Positions 16,656-24,399 of a stretch of 53,106 nucleotides of DNA are shown piece by piece (the stretch's first letter is position 1; each line of letters starts with the position of its first letter). Source of the stretch: an uncultured Lachnospiraceae bacterium. Lineage in GTDB: Bacteria > Bacillota > Clostridia > Lachnospirales > Lachnospiraceae. Location of the stretch: NCBI GenBank assembly GCA_947630805.1, contig CANRIV010000012.1:1-53106 (forward strand), in the 5' to 3' direction. Position numbers and translations under genes: made by a program. The notes beneath the pieces are model-generated. The model saw nothing but the letters and a program-made list of their open reading frames with translations. It ran no database searches and was not told the DNA's origin.

Positions 16656-17024
16656 TTACTCATAAATTGCACACTTTCTTACAGAAATTTCTGCTTCTTT
16701 CCCATTAGGGTATTGAAATTTTTCAGTGACTGACACATCTAACATGCCATTTTTGTAGTCAACGTCAAGTACTTCTATTTCCAAACTCCCATCGCTGTTT
16801 ATATTCGTACTCAATAAATTTATAAATTGCGCTATCAGCTCATCATTGGAATGAATCTCTTTTTGCTCTTTTACCTGACTATGACTTACCGCCTGTTTTA
16901 CTGCAGCAGAGACAGCCCGGGTTAATTCTTCTTCCCGGTCCGATCGGCTTTCCACAGATAAAATTGCCAGCGATACAAGCATTATAATGACGGCGATTCC
17001 AACTACAGTTATTACCTGTTTCAT
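16656..17024 (-). CDS. Pseudopilin-like protein of the Tad-like operon
   Basis: A 122-residue protein with a single N-terminal membrane segment (VITVVGIAVIIMLVSLAILSV), then a helical stretch and a beta-rich C-terminal part containing EIEVLDVDYKNGMLDVSV. This hydrophobic-helix-plus-small-globular-domain plan is that of TadE/pseudopilin proteins. It is the last gene of the operon, starting 3 bases after the beta-helix gene's stop, and its own stop faces birA 9 bases away. It could prime the pilus or anchor it. No family assignment beyond this architecture can be made by eye. Confidence 0.6.
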   Translation of the reverse strand: MKQVITVVGIAVIIMLVSLAILSVESRSDREEELTRAVSAAVKQAVSHSQVKEQKEIHSNDELIAQFINLLSTNINSDGSLEIEVLDVDYKNGMLDVSVTEKFQYPNGKEAEISVRKCAIYE

Positions 17025-17027
17025 CCT

Positions 17028-19604
17028 CTATTTTTTTACCTCTTCTATTTTTAATAATTTAGCTACCTGTTGATTCAGATTTTGGGTAATCTGATAATGG
17101 TTTTCTCGAATCTCCTTTTTTATTTCATACATTTGTTTAGGGTTTATTTGAATTTTATAGATTCCGTTTCCTCTTTCTTTTTCCAGAGACCTTCTCAGGT
17201 TACCATTTAAATTTGGATTTCTATTCCATTTCGATTTCTCCTGCAGGGTGTGCAGATAATTATAAGAAATATATCGGACCTGATTGTTCTGTATCATAGT
17301 ATCCAGCACATACACAGTCATTATGGCATTTGCCACAACCTTTCCGCTTTTATCAGAAGATTGCAATGTCATCCTGTAAAACCCGGATTGAGCCGTTGTC
17401 ATATAATTTTCTGTTGCCATATTTTCACCTTTTTGTGACACTGTTTTTCCGGCATATTCTATCTTAACTACATGGATATCATATTTTATCTGACTGTTTC
17501 GATCATCTTCTACCGTAACTTTTTTTAATACTTCCTGATTGTTTAGCACAATGTTCTGACCGACCATATAATAGCGGTCCGTCGCATAAATTGTCAGTTG
17601 CGTTATTCCTGTTTCCTTCCATTGTGCAAATAATATTCTGTTTTCATTGTCACGAAACTCTGCTCCCGGAAGAACACATTTTCCACTTCCGTCCCGGTTG
17701 AAATTCCAATGGGTTTCTTTATTTATCTCAGCATTTTCTCTCTCTATTTTTTTGTCGCTCAGACGGATACTTTCATTCCAGAACTTTATCTGAGGCTGCG
17801 GCAGATTTGCGACAGAATCCGTAGTGTTTTTATCATAGCTTATATTGTATTTTTCACTTACAATAATCCAGGAACTGTCACTTCCTGCTACATTATTCCC
17901 GGGGCGTATCAACTGGCTTGCCCGATATCCTGTAAGTGTGTATTTTTTAAAAACCAGACTCTCATCATATTCTTTCTGTGCATTTCCGGAATAATATAAA
18001 TCTTCTCCTGCATTTCCACCTCCATACGACACTTTTACAATTTTTGTACCATTATTTTTATCTTCTGATTCTATATTAGCCAGATAACCTGCCGTCATAC
18101 TTAACCTTTCTATAATTTCGATGTAAGTACCTGTTTTTAAATAGACTATATTTTCCGAACTTACAAAAGCACGATCTGCCATTTTAAATTTTCCATGGAC
18201 AAAAACTCCGCTTCCTTTATTTCCGCTCTCATTTCTCATAACGCCGTTGTTCTTATATACCAGATCCCCCTTTGTTCCAATATATATTCCGCCGCCGTAC
18301 TCGGAAGCTTTATTATTACTGACTTCCATATTTAACCCATACGCTCTTGCCATCAGTAAAAGTCCACCACCATTCTTTTTGGCAGTATTATAAGTAATAC
18401 GACAATTTTCCATTTGGATTTCATCGTTGCTGACGCCTTTTGTGTTTTCCGGGATTTTAACTCCGCCTCCATCTATTTCACAGGAATTACCCGAAATAAT
18501 CATGTTTCTCATCATAGCTTTTCCTGTATTTTTTTCTCCGGGTTCTCCAAACGAAATTCCGCCGCCGTACTTTCCGGAATTGTTATTAGATACTTGTCCT
18601 CCATAAAAATAAGAAACACCGCCTGCCTGTTCTCCTTTTCCTCCATTACAGCGGATTCCACCGCCACTGCCGGCTGCAGTATTGTTATATATTCTGGGTC
18701 CGCTACCGGAGGTCGTTCCTACGCAGAGGGTTGCGCCATATCCTGCAAACACACCTCCGGCACTGGCTCCCGCACTATTGTTAAAAATTTCTCCGCTATT
18801 GATATAACATTTTACTCCGCCCCGGACAAAGATAGCTCCGCCTTCCTCGCCGGCAGTACAGTTATAAATTTTCCCACCATTCATATTTATTATCGTTCCT
18901 ACAGAAGCGTGAATTGCTCCACCCTCTGTCGCGGCACTGCAATGATGTATTTTTGCCGTTGATCCGATTTCTATAGTTCCGTCTTTCGACTTTATAGCGC
19001 CACCATTTTTCCCTTTCGCATAACTGATTTCTCCATTTACGATTAGTGTCCCCCGACTAAATATGACCGCATTATCATCATGCCACACATTATTTAGCAG
19101 ATTTGTCATACGACAACTTTTTCCAATCGTTGCAGTCGCCGAAAAATTTACATGAAGCCATCCATTACTCTCCCACCGGTTATTTTCCATAACATCAGCA
19201 CTACCATCCACCGTCAGCAGATCATGGTCCCCATAGCCCAGCACCACTTGTGCTGAGCCTGTCACTTTCATACAATATTTTGAATACAACTCCGCATTGA
19301 CATCCACATTTAACTTTTTTGAACGTCGCAATGTCTTAGGTCCATTAATCGCATAAATACGAAACTTACCCTCGTCCACAGTTAAAGTTTTTGTAATTGC
19401 TATTGTGTCATTCATTGCAATATAAACCCACGAAGATTTATATTTTTCCGTAATAATTTCCCGAAGTTCTTTTTCTGATGTAATTACATAAGGTTTTGCC
19501 GATGTTCCCTTTCCTGTGTACCCCCAAACAGTATTTCCAAAACACAAAACCATAAATACTGTCAAAAATAAAATCTTTTCTATCTTACCTCGCATACCCT
19601 TCAA
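17028..19604 (-). CDS. Secreted beta-helix adhesin-like protein
   Basis: An 858-residue protein with a signal peptide (about residues 1-28, KILFLTVFMVLCFGNTVWG). Residues about 180-460 hold some ten short repeats of the form GGAI-x-GGxI-x-N-x-A, for example MNGGKIYNCTAGEEGGAIF. Such repeats build a right-handed parallel beta-helix as in polymorphic outer-membrane and pectate-lyase-like surface proteins. The C-terminal 300 residues are different and include a YDKNTTDSVANLP segment resembling Listeria-Bacteroides-type (Flg_new) repeats. No LPXTG anchor is seen. Its gene overlaps the end of the preceding pseudopilin-like gene by 20 bases inside the Tad-like operon, so it may be displayed by that apparatus, perhaps as a tip or surface adhesin. 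That role is inference. Confidence 0.75.
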   Translation of the reverse strand: MKGMRGKIEKILFLTVFMVLCFGNTVWGYTGKGTSAKPYVITSEKELREIITEKYKSSWVYIAMNDTIAITKTLTVDEGKFRIYAINGPKTLRRSKKLNVDVNAELYSKYCMKVTGSAQVVLGYGDHDLLTVDGSADVMENNRWESNGWLHVNFSATATIGKSCRMTNLLNNVWHDDNAVIFSRGTLIVNGEISYAKGKNGGAIKSKDGTIEIGSTAKIHHCSAATEGGAIHASVGTIINMNGGKIYNCTAGEEGGAIFVRGGVKCYINSGEIFNNSAGASAGGVFAGYGATLCVGTTSGSGPRIYNNTAAGSGGGIRCNGGKGEQAGGVSYFYGGQVSNNNSGKYGGGISFGEPGEKNTGKAMMRNMIISGNSCEIDGGGVKIPENTKGVSNDEIQMENCRITYNTAKKNGGGLLLMARAYGLNMEVSNNKASEYGGGIYIGTKGDLVYKNNGVMRNESGNKGSGVFVHGKFKMADRAFVSSENIVYLKTGTYIEIIERLSMTAGYLANIESEDKNNGTKIVKVSYGGGNAGEDLYYSGNAQKEYDESLVFKKYTLTGYRASQLIRPGNNVAGSDSSWIIVSEKYNISYDKNTTDSVANLPQPQIKFWNESIRLSDKKIERENAEINKETHWNFNRDGSGKCVLPGAEFRDNENRILFAQWKETGITQLTIYATDRYYMVGQNIVLNNQEVLKKVTVEDDRNSQIKYDIHVVKIEYAGKTVSQKGENMATENYMTTAQSGFYRMTLQSSDKSGKVVANAIMTVYVLDTMIQNNQVRYISYNYLHTLQEKSKWNRNPNLNGNLRRSLEKERGNGIYKIQINPKQMYEIKKEIRENHYQITQNLNQQVAKLLKIEEVKK

Positions 19605-19929
19605 TTACCGCCTGTTTTTCAAATTTTTCACCAAACATACGAAATGCCGGAAATACAATTTTATATTTCATTGTCACCAGTCTGCTGGGCTGTTCCTCGT
19701 ATATCGTTAAATCGTCTACGGACATTTCATATCCTTTTTCTTTTGCTTCCTGAATACATTCTGCAATTACCTGCGTATTACAATTACTGTCTTCTATTCT
19801 ATTGACCGCTACATTATAATAATCTCTTGCCTCAATATTTTGATTGTTACTGCTTATCATGGAAGCAAATAAAATACACCCCAGGGTAATTGCAATTATC
19901 ATGGAAAACATCTCAACTGCTATTTTCAT
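19585..19929 (-). CDS. Pseudopilin-like protein
   Basis: A 114-residue protein with an N-terminal membrane helix (VEMFSMIIAITLGCILFASMI) followed by a small soluble domain containing NQNIEARDYYNVAVNRIED. This matches the general layout of TadE/TadF-type minor pilins, with a Glu five to six residues into the helix region. GGAG lies seven bases upstream of the ATG. It begins 4 bases after the preceding gene and overlaps the beta-helix gene by 20 bases, so translation is probably coupled. It contains two Cys (in SNCNTQVIAEC) that could form a disulfide outside the cell. Confidence 0.6.
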   Translation of the reverse strand: MKIAVEMFSMIIAITLGCILFASMISSNNQNIEARDYYNVAVNRIEDSNCNTQVIAECIQEAKEKGYEMSVDDLTIYEEQPSRLVTMKYKIVFPAFRMFGEKFEKQAVIEGYAR

Positions 19930-19933
19930 ACTT

Positions 19934-20338
19934 TTACTCCACTATCACATTAATAAATTTTGTACATGCGAGCTGATTGTCCGATATAACCACGCATCTT
20001 AACTTGTACAATCCTTTTTTTGAAGTATCTACATTACCATAAATATTCAATCGGTCGGTGATATCGTTTCCCTGATAATCTTTTGCCGTAATAAAATCTT
20101 TACAATTAAATCTGGTATTTTTGTATTCTGTATATATAATCTCATCGGCACAGATGATGGGAAACTTTCCTTTATTTTCCTGAATAAATTTTCTGTTACT
20201 ATAACTTGTTTTTGTCTTATATTCGGGCGTGATAGCCTTCCATTTTTCTTCACACAGAGCACAGATGAGAATTATCATAATAACACCGATAATTCCATAT
20301 AAAAGTGCCTGTCCATGCTCTCCCAATAATATATTCAA
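19934..20338 (-). CDS. Pilin-like protein with C-terminal Ig-like domain
   Basis: The frame can be opened from a TTG at 20356, but the GGGAGG that would serve translation lies inside that extension. The TTG at 20338, 8 bases after it, is therefore the better start, giving 134 residues beginning NILLGEHGQALLYG. This E-HG-x-x-(L/I) start followed by a hydrophobic helix recurs in the two tiny proteins encoded just upstream and in the 59-residue protein that opens the operon. Residues about 75-134, with YQGNDITDRLNIYGNVDTSK, resemble a bacterial Ig-like (DUF5011-type) domain. That arrangement would place an adhesive domain on a pilin stem. Confidence 0.6.
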   Translation of the reverse strand: MNILLGEHGQALLYGIIGVIMIILICALCEEKWKAITPEYKTKTSYSNRKFIQENKGKFPIICADEIIYTEYKNTRFNCKDFITAKDYQGNDITDRLNIYGNVDTSKKGLYKLRCVVISDNQLACTKFINVIVE

Positions 20339-20342
20339 CGTA

Positions 20343-20483
20343 TCATCCTCCCACAATTCCTGACAGCGTATAGGCTTCCATATGTGCCACGGATACCATA
20401 ATCATCAGAATAATAACAATAGAGAGAACAGATACAATTCCACTCACGATAATACCTCCGTGTTCCATTACAAATTCTTCCAT
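20343..20483 (-). CDS. Tiny pilin-like protein (46 aa)
   Basis: A 46-residue protein, MEEFVMEHGG then a long hydrophobic stretch and HMEAYTLSGIVGG. AGGAGG precedes its ATG, formed by the end of the gene before it. The EHG motif ahead of the membrane helix is shared with the other small proteins of this operon and resembles Flp-type pilins, which are also about 45-60 residues. Its stop lies just before the start of the Ig-bearing pilin. It could be a subunit of the filament or a membrane adaptor. Confidence 0.65.
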   Translation of the reverse strand: MEEFVMEHGGIIVSGIVSVLSIVIILMIMVSVAHMEAYTLSGIVGG

Positions 20484-20484
20484 A

Positions 20485-20592
20485 TTAACCTCCTGTCAAT
20501 ACCACTAATATTTCTTTAAATCCCGCTATAATCAATAAAAATACCACTCCAAAAATAATACACTGTCCTGTTTCTGATAATAAAAATTTCAT
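20485..20592 (-). CDS. Tiny pilin-like membrane protein (35 aa)
   Basis: A 35-residue protein beginning MKFLLSETGQCIIFG, with one hydrophobic helix and the end VLTGG. Its ATG directly follows the TAA of the TadB/C-like gene, with GGAGGG at the right distance inside that gene's end. It shares the short polar head (E-T-G-Q) and helix layout of its neighbours, which marks it as a divergent member of the same set. Its reading frame is exactly packed between two genes (one base before the next start), which supports it being real. Confidence 0.6.
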   Translation of the reverse strand: MKFLLSETGQCIIFGVVFLLIIAGFKEILVVLTGG

Positions 20593-21894
20593 TTACCCTC
20601 CATTAAGCACACCGGATATTGATGACGTAAAAACAAGAATCATCAATATCATGTCTGTCATTATTTTTACTACACCTAAAATCATAGGAATTGCGGTAAA
20701 CATACCTGCCGCTCCTATTTTGTCCTTGTTTTTCATTTCTTCTGAACGCATCATCATTTTATTATTTCTGTCAATAATCGAATTCATTTGCTGCGCTGAT
20801 TCTTCCTTTCCAAGCTCATTGATGGAATAAAACATCTTCATGGAAGATTTAATATCCCGCAAATCAAATTCTTTTAAAAAATTTTCATAAGGCTCTATTC
20901 CCACAGGATATTTTTCAAAGTCTATCAGAAGCTTCCGGATGGGTCTTTTTAAAACAAATTCCGCACTCTCATAAGAATTTTCTATAGCAGACTGAACAGT
21001 ATCGTTTTGCAGATTAATTGCCACTTCCCGAATCCAGTCAGGAAACGCCTTCAAAATTTCCCGCTCTAGCGTCTTTTTTGCTTTTTTATAAGTCATTTTC
21101 TCTAACATGGAAAACGACTTTGCATTGTCATATCCCTTTTCTGCCAATACGTAATATTTCATTATCATGTTATCAGACAGCGGACTCTGTTCACAAATCC
21201 AGTTAAAATTTAACTTCTTCACAACAAGAAGATAAGAAATCAGCATTAGAAGAATCATTACCGCTGAACAGATCTGATAAAGCGGATGTCCGGTATAACG
21301 ATATTCCTTTGGAATTAAATATGCCATAAAGCCACATGTCAGTAATGTCGAGGCAATCGATATCAGCACATTTCTTTTTACTCTTTCAACATCCTTGATA
21401 AACAGCAGAACTCTGTCGCTCCAGTTTTTAATATCATTAAGCAGTATATCAATATATGTTTTATACTCCCCGCCATGTTTTTCAATTTTAATTAAAAATT
21501 TATGTAAGGAACGTAATCTCTTACAGTCATACTCTTCCTGTATAATGTTTAAAGATTCTTCATAGATGTCTTCTGACATTTTAGAATCAATATTGACAAC
21601 AGCTTCCTCGATAATTTCTTTCATGCAGTCCGAGCTTACTTTTGCAGCATCCGTCAGAGCCGGTCGTATTTTAGGTTGTTTCTTAAATGAATACACCATT
21701 TGCTCCATATATAAAACTACATCATCAAATCGATTCCGATTCTTTTTTCTCTTCTGCTCTTCTTTTAGAAATACCAGATGAAGCAGTCCAGCCGTCACAG
21801 TACAGATAATCAATAAAAAAACATTTATCTGATAAGCGATACAGATGACAACAACCACCAAAAGACTCTTCATTGATTTTTTTATTTTTTTCAC
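20593..21894 (-). CDS. TadB/TadC-like inner-membrane platform protein
   Basis: A 433-residue membrane protein that would act as the assembly platform on which the TadA ATPase drives pilin extraction. It has an N-terminal membrane pair (LLVVVVICIAYQINVFLLII) and a central pair near residues 185-235. After two cytosolic helical domains, one containing FDDVVLYMEQMVYSFKKQ as in type II secretion F domains, there is a last membrane segment near residue 410. It overlaps the ATPase gene by 4 bases (ATGA). Classical Tad loci have two such proteins of about 300 residues; here a single longer one is present. Assignment rests on topology and context. Confidence 0.7.
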   Translation of the reverse strand: MKKIKKSMKSLLVVVVICIAYQINVFLLIICTVTAGLLHLVFLKEEQKRKKNRNRFDDVVLYMEQMVYSFKKQPKIRPALTDAAKVSSDCMKEIIEEAVVNIDSKMSEDIYEESLNIIQEEYDCKRLRSLHKFLIKIEKHGGEYKTYIDILLNDIKNWSDRVLLFIKDVERVKRNVLISIASTLLTCGFMAYLIPKEYRYTGHPLYQICSAVMILLMLISYLLVVKKLNFNWICEQSPLSDNMIMKYYVLAEKGYDNAKSFSMLEKMTYKKAKKTLEREILKAFPDWIREVAINLQNDTVQSAIENSYESAEFVLKRPIRKLLIDFEKYPVGIEPYENFLKEFDLRDIKSSMKMFYSINELGKEESAQQMNSIIDRNNKMMMRSEEMKNKDKIGAAGMFTAIPMILGVVKIMTDMILMILVFTSSISGVLNGG

Positions 21895-22910
21895 GTATTC
21901 TCTCTCCTATCAAAAGGCTCTTTAATTCCTGCAAGCCTGAATTTTCTCTCGATATCCTCCGGGATTTTTTTTGTCAAAATTTTTCCATCTTCATATATCA
22001 TAATTTTTTCATTCTCCTCATTGTTTCTGGAAAGACACATCACCTGCGATATGTGTCTTGTGATTTTTTCCCCTTCTTTTACCACAGATTGGAGCTGCAC
22101 TCCGATGTCAATAAAAGAATAAACATCATTTTCATTGATATGATGTCCCATATTTCTCAGACGATCAGGGATTTTGCCTGCATCATCAAGATGAATCGTA
22201 GTGAGGCAATGAACGCCTGCGGAAATATTTTCCAAAAGATATTTCACTTCCTCTCCTCTTGCCTCTGCAAGCAAAACCCATGTGGGAAGCTGCCGTTTAC
22301 TGGCTTTTAGTGCATCTGAATATCCGAAGTTTTCGCTTACTTTAATCTCTACGCAATCTTTTTCCGGATTAATTGCTGCATATCTCAGCTCTAGATTATC
22401 TTCAATCGTATAAACCCTCTCATAGGCTGGAATATAATTGGTCAGATATTTTACATATTCTGTTTTTCCTACTCCCGGTAATCCCCCTACGACCACGGTG
22501 CAGTGTGCCCGTATTGCATTCTCCATAAAAATATCTATTGTCTTTGTGCAATAGGATTCCTGAATTATTTTTTCTCTGCTGATTCTTCGTACTGCGGGAG
22601 TTTTTCTAATACTAATGCTAATCCCGGTATTCGTTACCGATTCGTGTAATATGGATATTCTTAAATTATCGGTTTCTGCTTCTAAAATCGGGCTATTCTG
22701 ATTAAACTGAACATTCATCAGATTGCTGATTTTTGTATAAAACTGCTGGATAAAAACATCATCCAGATAAAATCCCTTTATCTGATATCTGCCTTTACTC
22801 AGACTATTTACCCACAGACTTCTGCTCCAATTAATATCTGTAATATCATCATCTAAAATATACTTTAATAATTTTCCAAATGCCCTGTCCGGCAATGACA
22901 GTTTTCTCAT
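21891..22910 (-). CDS. TadA/CpaF-type secretion ATPase
   Basis: A hexameric ATPase that powers assembly of Tad/type IV-like pili at the cytosolic face. The 339-residue protein has Walker A GGLPGVGKT at 142-150, an Asp-box-like TIEDNLELRY near 168, a Walker-B/Glu segment WVLLAEARGEE at 211-221, and a His-box-like HCLTTIHLDDAG. All are family landmarks. It is shorter than most CpaF proteins because the N-terminal region is reduced. The gene is second in the operon, 81 bases after the 59-residue pilin-like gene. It is the firmest evidence that the operon encodes a pilus or secretion machine. Confidence 0.9.
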   Translation of the reverse strand: MRKLSLPDRAFGKLLKYILDDDITDINWSRSLWVNSLSKGRYQIKGFYLDDVFIQQFYTKISNLMNVQFNQNSPILEAETDNLRISILHESVTNTGISISIRKTPAVRRISREKIIQESYCTKTIDIFMENAIRAHCTVVVGGLPGVGKTEYVKYLTNYIPAYERVYTIEDNLELRYAAINPEKDCVEIKVSENFGYSDALKASKRQLPTWVLLAEARGEEVKYLLENISAGVHCLTTIHLDDAGKIPDRLRNMGHHINENDVYSFIDIGVQLQSVVKEGEKITRHISQVMCLSRNNEENEKIMIYEDGKILTKKIPEDIERKFRLAGIKEPFDRRENT

Positions 22911-22991
22911 AACTCCTCCCGGCTAATTTTAAAAAATATTATAACCATATGGATTTTCCCCTGTTCGTCCTGAATTTCATTTTCTTTTTGT

Positions 22992-23171
22992 CTAATTGGC
23001 CACTATTTTGCCTGCAATAGCGTCAAACGTTACAGAATCTGAATAACTTTCTATTACAGTCTTTACGGCATTGCTGACAATCGGACCAATCACATAGGCC
23101 ACGCCAATCAGAAGCATAATGCATACGGCAATAAAAATCGTCTTGCCATGCTCCTGCAAAAATACATCCAT
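22992..23171 (-). CDS. Flp-type pilin-like protein (59 aa)
   Basis: A 59-residue protein, MDVFLQEHGKTIFIAV then a hydrophobic helix and a polar C-terminal half containing SNAVKTVIESYSDSVT. AAGGAG lies nine bases upstream of the ATG. It is the first gene after the operon promoter, the place expected for the major subunit, and its length and topology fit Flp pilins. There is no classical prepilin-peptidase site (G before F-T-L-I-E). The shared E-HG motif may be the processing or recognition signal of this variant, which is inference. Confidence 0.7.
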   Translation of the reverse strand: MDVFLQEHGKTIFIAVCIMLLIGVAYVIGPIVSNAVKTVIESYSDSVTFDAIAGKIVAN

Positions 23172-23233
23172 ATCTCTGTCTCCTTTCCTTTATTCCGAAA
23201 AAAACAACTAATAAATAACAGGGAGTTAGGGAA

Positions 23234-23294
23234 ATATGTGTTTTTATCAGCCTCTCAAAATCATTACGCGTAAAGTTCTATAAAAATCACATAT
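23234..23294 (-). promoter_or_regulatory. Structured 5' leader of the pilus operon
   Basis: Within the roughly 165-base leader, ATATGTGATTTTTAT pairs with ATAAAAACACATAT (23280-23294 with 23234-23247, 14 bp with one bulged A). The stem encloses a palindrome TTACGCGTAA (23264-23273). I could not match it to c-di-GMP-I or other riboswitch consensus by eye. It may control read-through or translation. Confidence 0.5.
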
Positions 23295-23344
23295 TCTGAA
23301 TATTTTTTATTTATACATTTTGTTGCTTTTTGTTCGGTAATGAA

Positions 23345-23373
23345 ATAATATCACTTTTTGATTGTATAGTCAA
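23345..23373 (-). promoter_or_regulatory. Promoter of the Tad-like operon
   Basis: Minus-strand TTGACT (23368-23373), 17-base spacer, TATTAT (23345-23350). The predicted start is near 23338. No other convincing promoter was seen before 16.6 kb on this strand, so it probably drives all nine genes. Confidence 0.7.
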
Positions 23374-23556: not shown

Positions 23557-24399
23557 TTAATAAACAAATAACTGCGACCAATATTTTCTTCCGGAGGCAT
23601 TTTTATAATAACCTACTCCGATTTTTTTAAAATTAGGATTTAAAATATTGGCTCTATGACCGTCACTATTCATCCATGCCTTCATAACCTCTTTTGGAGA
23701 AGTTTGTCCCCAGGCGATATTCTCTCCTGCGCCATGATAGGAAATTCCATTCTCTTTTAGCACAGAGCTGAAGCTGCTGCCATTTGGTCTGGTATGAGAA
23801 AAGGACACTTCTATTTCCTTTACCCGAATCATTGCTGCTTTCTGAATCGTTTTGTCAAGAACTACCTTGCCAAGACCGGCTTTTACCCTCTCCTGATTTA
23901 CCAACTCTACAACCTCTTCTATATAAGCATCGTCTTCTGAAACAGTTTCTGTTGTTGTTTCATTTTTTGTGGTTTCTTTTTCACCAGGTTGCTCTGTTTC
24001 AAAATCTTCCGGTTTCTGCGTAGAAGTTTCTGGCGGATTATCGACAGTTGGCTCTGTCTGCTGTTCCGTTTCCGCAACATCCGTATCCGGGCAGTTTGTA
24101 TCAGGATTCTGTGGTTTTTGTGCACATGTTCCCGATATGACAATACTGCATTTTGTTTTTGGACATGTAATTGCAGGGCAACGGTTTAAATTACTACTTT
24201 CCACTTTTATATCACAGTCAGAAAGTGCTTTTTTTAATGCGTCTTTACAATTTTCTCCATTGCCTGAAATGATATATGTCTTTATCTGGCAGGGCTGATT
24301 CTTACAATCTTTCGTTCCCGCCTGCACCAAAGTATTTGTATTTACCACTGACATTGCAGTTATCGCTGCAATTGCTATGGCTAAAAATGACTTTCTCAT
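23557..24399 (-). CDS. Secreted CAP (SCP/PR1) domain protein
   Basis: A 280-residue extracellular protein. The signal peptide is about residues 1-28. A Cys-rich module (about 32-95) has paired cysteines such as CKNQPC and CPAITCPKTKC. A Pro/Thr/Glu-rich linker (about 96-160) leads to a C-terminal CAP domain (about 162-280) with VNQERVKAGLG, SHTRPNGSSF, GENIAWG and MNSDGHRANILNP, including the two conserved His and Glu. Bacterial CAP proteins are secreted or wall-associated, and their biochemical role is mostly unknown. AAGGAGG precedes the ATG. It has its own terminator, and a TATAAT near 24430 on the minus strand is a likely -10. Confidence 0.9.
   Translation of the reverse strand: MRKSFLAIAIAAITAMSVVNTNTLVQAGTKDCKNQPCQIKTYIISGNGENCKDALKKALSDCDIKVESSNLNRCPAITCPKTKCSIVISGTCAQKPQNPDTNCPDTDVAETEQQTEPTVDNPPETSTQKPEDFETEQPGEKETTKNETTTETVSEDDAYIEEVVELVNQERVKAGLGKVVLDKTIQKAAMIRVKEIEVSFSHTRPNGSSFSSVLKENGISYHGAGENIAWGQTSPKEVMKAWMNSDGHRANILNPNFKKIGVGYYKNASGRKYWSQLFVY

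Follow-up and report, generated by a model that had tools for sequence, protein, structure and literature searches.

We analyzed the 53,106-nucleotide (nt) contig CANRIV010000012.1 of an uncultured Lachnospiraceae bacterium (assembly GCA_947630805.1, a genome of 1.84 Mb in 26 contigs; the whole contig is referred to here as the window) and found nine tightly packed genes on its minus strand (23171–16656) that probably encode a divergent, minimal type IV filament machine. This machine would be derived from the Tad (type IVc) pilus, would display a large surface protein through a tip made of two small membrane proteins, and occurs, as far as sampled, only in Lachnospiraceae. The nine genes encode, in this order, a 59-amino-acid (aa) micro-pilin-like protein (A59), an ATPase, a platform protein, three further small proteins (s35, s46, and Ig134), a pseudopilin-like protein (pp114), the surface protein, and a second pseudopilin-like protein (pp122); this gene set is referred to here as the module. 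All nine open reading frames (ORFs) named in a preliminary description of the window are present, each with a ribosome-binding site. That description had suggested a compact display or secretion system; what stands of this suggestion is a compact Tad-like machine that is linked to a surface protein and is distinct from ordinary Tad loci.

The module recurs within the genus and, in rearranged versions with varying surface proteins, within the family, as had been anticipated for a distinct system. All nine genes were detected by tblastn in 16 of the 19 genus loci fetched, and the contig ends within each of the remaining three (L061, L067, and L068). Gene order is constant across the 19 loci, with birA as the next gene in 17 of them; L061 and L067 end before birA. 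Counting the source genome in both samples, the platform gene was found in 20 of 23 genus genomes and in 26 of 200 sampled family genomes; in the 18 family loci that were fetched, genes of the same kinds are arranged in different orders, and a few of these loci are incomplete. Matches in the order sample came from 17 of 392 genomes, all in the same family, and the only match among the 398 genomes of the phylum sample was the source genome itself. No module was thus found outside Lachnospiraceae in these two samples, in which at most four candidates were scored per genome, so that divergent members beyond the family may have escaped detection.

The module ATPase (339 aa; 21891–22910, minus strand, as are all other module features) matches Pfam T2SSE (E 5.7e-18), and its PDB relatives include VirB11 (1e-28) and CpaF (5e-27), in agreement with its initial description as TadA; it is a TadA/VirB11-type ATPase. 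Its best NCBIfam scores were for VirB11, TrbB, archaellum, and TadA-type models, all far under their cut-offs, and its named relatives (n = 7) belong to “Eubacterium” and to Lachnospiraceae metagenome-assembled genomes. The source genome contains two further loci (L097 and L098) with a TadA-type ATPase, TadB/TadC-like proteins, a Flp1-like protein (the Flp match of L098 being below the cut-off), and an A24 peptidase gene. In an IQ-TREE tree of 42 ATPases (22 from modules, 18 TadAs, and two labelled PIL because they adjoin PilC-type genes), the module proteins cluster together (100/99), and none of the 18 TadAs sampled, including the two of the same genome, falls among them; the branch separating them from the TadAs measures 4.5 changes per site. 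This tree took 22 of the 34 module ATPases, near-copies and truncated calls being omitted, and the ATPases of 20 of 22 ordinary loci, since L258 and L261 yielded none, but no VirB11 proteins. An ATPase that falls within ordinary Tad loci together with unconserved small proteins had been set beforehand as speaking against a distinct system; instead, the ATPases group separately and the small proteins are conserved. The divergent ATPases with their long branch, and the lack of TadZ, RcpC, and TadV genes among the operon genes, would also fit a functionless, degenerate remnant of a normal Tad locus; since the nine genes, the promoter, and the P-loop residues are conserved in the genus, and the genes also occur in other genera, we consider such a remnant very improbable. 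Pfam and NCBIfam gave no match to VirB4 or other mating-pore genes among the nine genes, where no search aimed at them was made.

The platform gene (20593–21894) encodes one chain of 433 aa. Because single-sequence hhalign comparisons with the TadB and TadC proteins of the source genome gave nothing, a profile of Clostridia TadB proteins was needed to place this protein; the profiles used were built from 18 TadB, 18 TadC, and 16 PilC sequences, with omission of L194, where just one gene was called. The N-terminal half matched the TadB profile at 95.8% (E 7e-9) and the C-terminal half matched TadB at 91.6% and TadC at 84.2%, as compared to 0.1% for unrelated controls. Against the PilC profile the platform reached only 2–8% (TadB itself reached 43% there), which does not agree with a PilC/GspF-type platform of type IVa pili or type II secretion systems (T2SS); in the source genome, it also had no match to Pfam T2SSF at E 0.01, and its two halves showed no significant alignment with each other. 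By these profile comparisons, the platform unites two TadB/TadC-like halves in one chain; the single TadB/C-type platform proposed at the outset is therefore indeed single, but it is made up of two such halves rather than being a plain TadB or TadC. According to the available part of PMC10191384, Tad systems have two separate one-domain platforms, TadB and TadC. The available part of PMC6668835 describes two-domain TadB homologues in some Archaea, and the two-domain chain is therefore not unique. Four platform matches in other genomes (L139, L141, L143, and L144, from G008, G545, G512, and G534) contain one internal stop codon, which may represent a split copy or simply the gene's own stop.

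Four small proteins of 59, 35, 46, and 134 residues had been described from the sequence, and all four are real, with length and position conserved across the genus. Three are micro-pilin-like, with a short polar head preceding a helix: A59 (22992–23171; head MDVFLQEHG), whose first half is nearly invariant in the genus alignment and which is probably the main filament subunit, s35 (20485–20592; MKFLLSETG), and s46 (20343–20483; MEEFVMEHG); both length and start of these three are constant in the genus. The fourth, Ig134 (19934–20338; TTG start), has the EHG head and helix, and the putative C-terminal Ig-like domain of the Ig-domain pilin proposed earlier corresponds to a match below the Pfam cut-off (25.2 versus 27 bits). 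None of the small proteins scored above a family cut-off in Pfam or NCBIfam. When every open frame within the module spans of 37 loci was scanned, 138 helices preceded by [EQ]-x-[GAS] were identified. A good ribosome-binding site accompanies 108 of these heads; with starts permitted up to 40 codons upstream, Glu or Gln was at residue 7 in 100 of the 108 (46 of 51 when only the other genera are counted), a result of which only the position is independent of the pattern demanded. Residue 4 was F, L, or I in 93 of these 100 heads, and residue 8 was H or Y in 76. At one locus (L094:6461–6857), the first micro-pilin gene occurs twice in tandem, the two copies being identical over the residues compared.

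No TadZ, RcpC, or A24 peptidase match was found among the nine operon genes (Pfam, NCBIfam), and a motif scan of the 37 module loci for peptidase-like ORFs (GxGDxK) detected none. The earlier statement that the system has no prepilin peptidase, TadZ, or RcpC-type gene thus holds for the operon, but A24 peptidase genes are present elsewhere in all 48 genomes checked, 45 of which carry the module; none of the 48 combined a module with the lack of an A24 peptidase, and the source genome alone has three A24 matches. The module ATPase is the sole T2SSE ATPase at E 1e-8 in G200 (96% complete), G203 (76%), and G210 (89%), and all three genomes retain an orphan A24 gene (L236, L238, and L240) next to, or approximately 3 kb from, a gene that looks by eye like ilvC; the source genome likewise has an orphan A24 gene near an ilvC-like gene (L237; C1:84197–84502), and G215 has one T2SSE ATPase and two A24 genes. 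Flp1-like leaders of the same genomes end in EFLxEEDG/A, which resembles the FLxE[HY]G of the module heads. These leaders (n = 13; a usable head was found in 13 of 30 loci, L206–L235, two of the lengths, 13 and 14, being read by eye) are 12–23 residues long, whereas the module heads are nearly fixed at 9. Prepilin peptidase processing is described as a prerequisite for pilin assembly in the accessible text of PMC10191384, and that of PMC6668835 reports MSHA loci without a peptidase, which are thought to borrow one.

The heads were first taken to be those of leaderless Flp pilins, in which case E7, Y8, and G9 would correspond to Glu5, Tyr6, and Gly7 of Flp. Because A24 genes are present in all 48 genomes, orphan A24 genes are kept, the Flp1 leaders are similar, and MSHA provides a precedent for borrowing, cleavage of the four EHG proteins after Gly9 in trans appears as likely as no cleavage. 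We accordingly give even chances to the explanation that these proteins are ordinary short prepilins, from which a TadV-like peptidase encoded outside the operon removes a leader of nine residues by cutting after Gly9, in a system that works as Tad does apart from its compactness. Of the 100 heads, 98 have G and 2 have A at residue 9 (the pattern itself demanding G, A, or S), which is consistent with such cleavage; the nearly fixed head length, the lack of a peptidase-like ORF in the module loci, and the presence of a charged residue at position 10 in 33 of these heads and of Pro in 5 argue against it, as does the absence of a Gly site in pp114 and pp122. A peptidase-free class of type IV filaments, in which all six membrane subunits would lack a cleaved leader, the start codon would set the distance to the key Glu, and interchangeable surface proteins would attach via a common docking domain, is possible but the less probable of these two explanations.

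The two pseudopilin-like proteins are leaderless: pp114 (19585–19929; MKIAVE6MF) and pp122 (16656–17024; no early Glu) start, as judged by eye, a few residues ahead of the helix and have no Gly site, and neither has an in-frame upstream start in the window. Of 33 pp114 sequences, 24 carry Glu and 6 carry Lys at residue 6, and 19 offer no start in frame further upstream; the spacing of Glu6 equals that of Glu5 of a mature pseudopilin if the Met is counted as −1. Cleavage of pp114 and pp122 is thus very unlikely, judging from their N-termini. With its lack of the Glu, pp122 resembles the tip-capping subunits described in the accessible part of PMC10191384, and is likely the tip subunit. Of the 26 loci in which both the surface protein gene and the pp122 gene were detected, 24 have the two side by side, and in L081 pp122 runs on into a 921-aa protein that matches the surface protein of L084 (E 4e-23). 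Gene calls in some other genera are truncated (pp122 in L079, L080, L084, L086, and L090; pp114 in L088 and L096).

The surface protein (17028–19595) is probably secreted, with an N-terminus that is signal-peptide-like by eye. It most likely starts at the ATG at 19595 rather than at the TTG at 19604, giving 855 aa instead of the 858 residues previously assigned to a beta-helix protein; a large, repeat-rich surface protein is indeed encoded, and its eleven GG-type (GGG/GGA) repeat marks suggest a beta-helix; no profile match above the cut-off (Pfam, NCBIfam) and no PDB relative at E 0.001 were found for it. It carries no LPXTG motif, nor was one seen in the 14 surface proteins inspected. While surface proteins vary widely between genera, they share a C-terminal domain (RFIS..Y..TL...SKW; in the window VRYIS..YLHTL..SKW, 17031–17288), designated here the SKW domain. 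This domain was detected in 28 of 33 genomes with the module and in one of 14 others. The exception, G001 (74% complete), contains a 4.4-kb contig on which pp122 adjoins the SKW gene; on this evidence, and once the SKW search had been made, it was reassigned to the genomes with the module, giving 29 of 34 versus 0 of 13 (Fisher p 6e-8). As the SKW profile was built from 18 loci and 17 of the genomes searched supplied rows to it, we also counted without these 17 genomes (12 of 17 versus 0 of 13; p 9e-5). Because the SKW domain tracks the module, the SKW-domain surface proteins are probably the cargo of the system. In G038 and G083, an SKW gene is on a different contig from the module. G103 has two modules, and on a contig separate from both, a gene for a 34-aa EYG protein adjoins one for an extra 241-aa SKW protein (L293:4173–5073, minus strand). 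Upstream of the module, several genus members (L065:17475–18581, minus strand; L066, L067, and L071) encode large, apparently secreted proteins of differing sizes, one of which matches the module surface protein.

Cargo that carries a signal-peptide-like N-terminus and no LPXTG, an SKW domain that tracks the module, and SKW genes that can sit on another contig would also be compatible with a pseudopilus-type secretion machine, in which a short T2SS-like piston would drive the surface protein across the wall and then let it go, with no lasting filament. The run-on of pp122 into a surface-type protein in L081 argues for stable attachment, and the platform is TadB-like, not PilC-like; this explanation therefore appears unlikely. 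In the display machine that we favor, the ATPase and the two-domain platform would push a short filament of tiny EHG/EYG helices out of the membrane, with A59 as the probable main subunit and s35, s46, and Ig134 as minor subunits or adapters. The surface protein would be exported by Sec and carried on a tip of pp114 and pp122, which may grip its C-terminal SKW domain through pp122; the tip would then lift it through the cell wall, where it may serve in adhesion, and the surface domain would be swapped between lineages.

Several results weigh against a Tad-derived display machine. The platform gene was not detected in three of the 23 genus genomes, and the SKW domain was not detected in five module genomes (G008, G034, G108, G139, and G168); with G001 counted as a genome without the module, the independent SKW count drops to 11 of 16 versus 1 of 14 (p 8e-4). 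In addition, neither pp114 nor pp122 had a Pfam match to TadE, pp114 did not match two proteins of the source genome's own Tad loci, and the heads matched Flp families only weakly (E 0.01–0.04, in three of eight tested).

The Tad pilus (TadA-TadB-TadC-Flp) is one of the closest known systems: like the module, it has a TadA/VirB11-type ATPase, TadB-like platform domains, tiny pilin-like proteins, and two larger pseudopilin-like genes. The module differs from Tad in its separate ATPase group, its one two-domain platform, its operon without TadV, TadZ, or RcpC, its leaderless pp114 and pp122, and its EHG heads, which are fixed at residues 7–9. Where Tad has a Flp pilin with a cleaved leader and Glu5-Tyr6, the module has E7-[HY]8-G9 heads with sub-threshold Flp matches; where Tad has TadE and TadF, the module has pp114, with its frequent Glu6 but no significant profile match, and pp122, with no match. 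In 2011, tad-like loci that lack an apparent prepilin signal were reported from Gram-positive bacteria including C. kluyveri and C. bolteae (PMC3244431, available in part). As in the module, these loci encode no prepilin-signal protein and their tad genes are distant from other tad genes; by the published description, on which this comparison rests, they carry tadV, tadZ, and rcpC, none of which is in the module operon. The Kil Tad pilus of Myxococcus has interchangeable tips and, like the module, variable tip proteins carried by minor pilins as well as small Flp-type adapters; its minor pilins have predicted peptidase sites, and the accessible portion of PMC12075869 describes no SKW-type cargo. 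The Com pilus is likewise a compact monoderm filament machine with one platform (PMC10191384, in the part available), but the module platform matches TadB over a PilC-type profile, the Com genes themselves not being part of this comparison. No earlier description of this system in Lachnospiraceae was found in the literature searched, which excluded most subscription journals. What appears to be new is that one platform, leaders either fixed or absent, an ATPase group of its own, and a domain that marks the cargo occur together.

Two leaderless subunits beside four nearly fixed 9-residue heads make the need for pilin cleavage directly testable. The module, which needs only a single ATPase and platform beside its six small subunits, would also represent a simple model for filament assembly in monoderms. 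It is likely a surface-display system with swappable cargo in gut Lachnospiraceae, for which the SKW domain provides a handle for finding cargo.

The promoter claimed for the operon, an extended −10 site (TTGACT, 17 nt, TATTAT; 23373–23345, minus strand), was recovered by a promoter scan upstream of A59, and 15 of 19 sequences have a counterpart ahead of their first gene; no matching site was found in L065, L067, L069, and L070, and promoter-like sites are no commoner in the region than in shuffled sequence (29 versus 27.3). In L087 only, a 294-aa gene (1940–2824) whose product looks by eye like a deviant, ParA/TadZ-like P-loop protein, with no Pfam match, is located just upstream of the surface protein gene. 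Directly upstream of the operon, the window encodes a CAP-domain protein (23557–24399, minus strand; Pfam CAP, E 4e-22), which is beside the module in two of the 19 genus loci fetched (L075 and L077).

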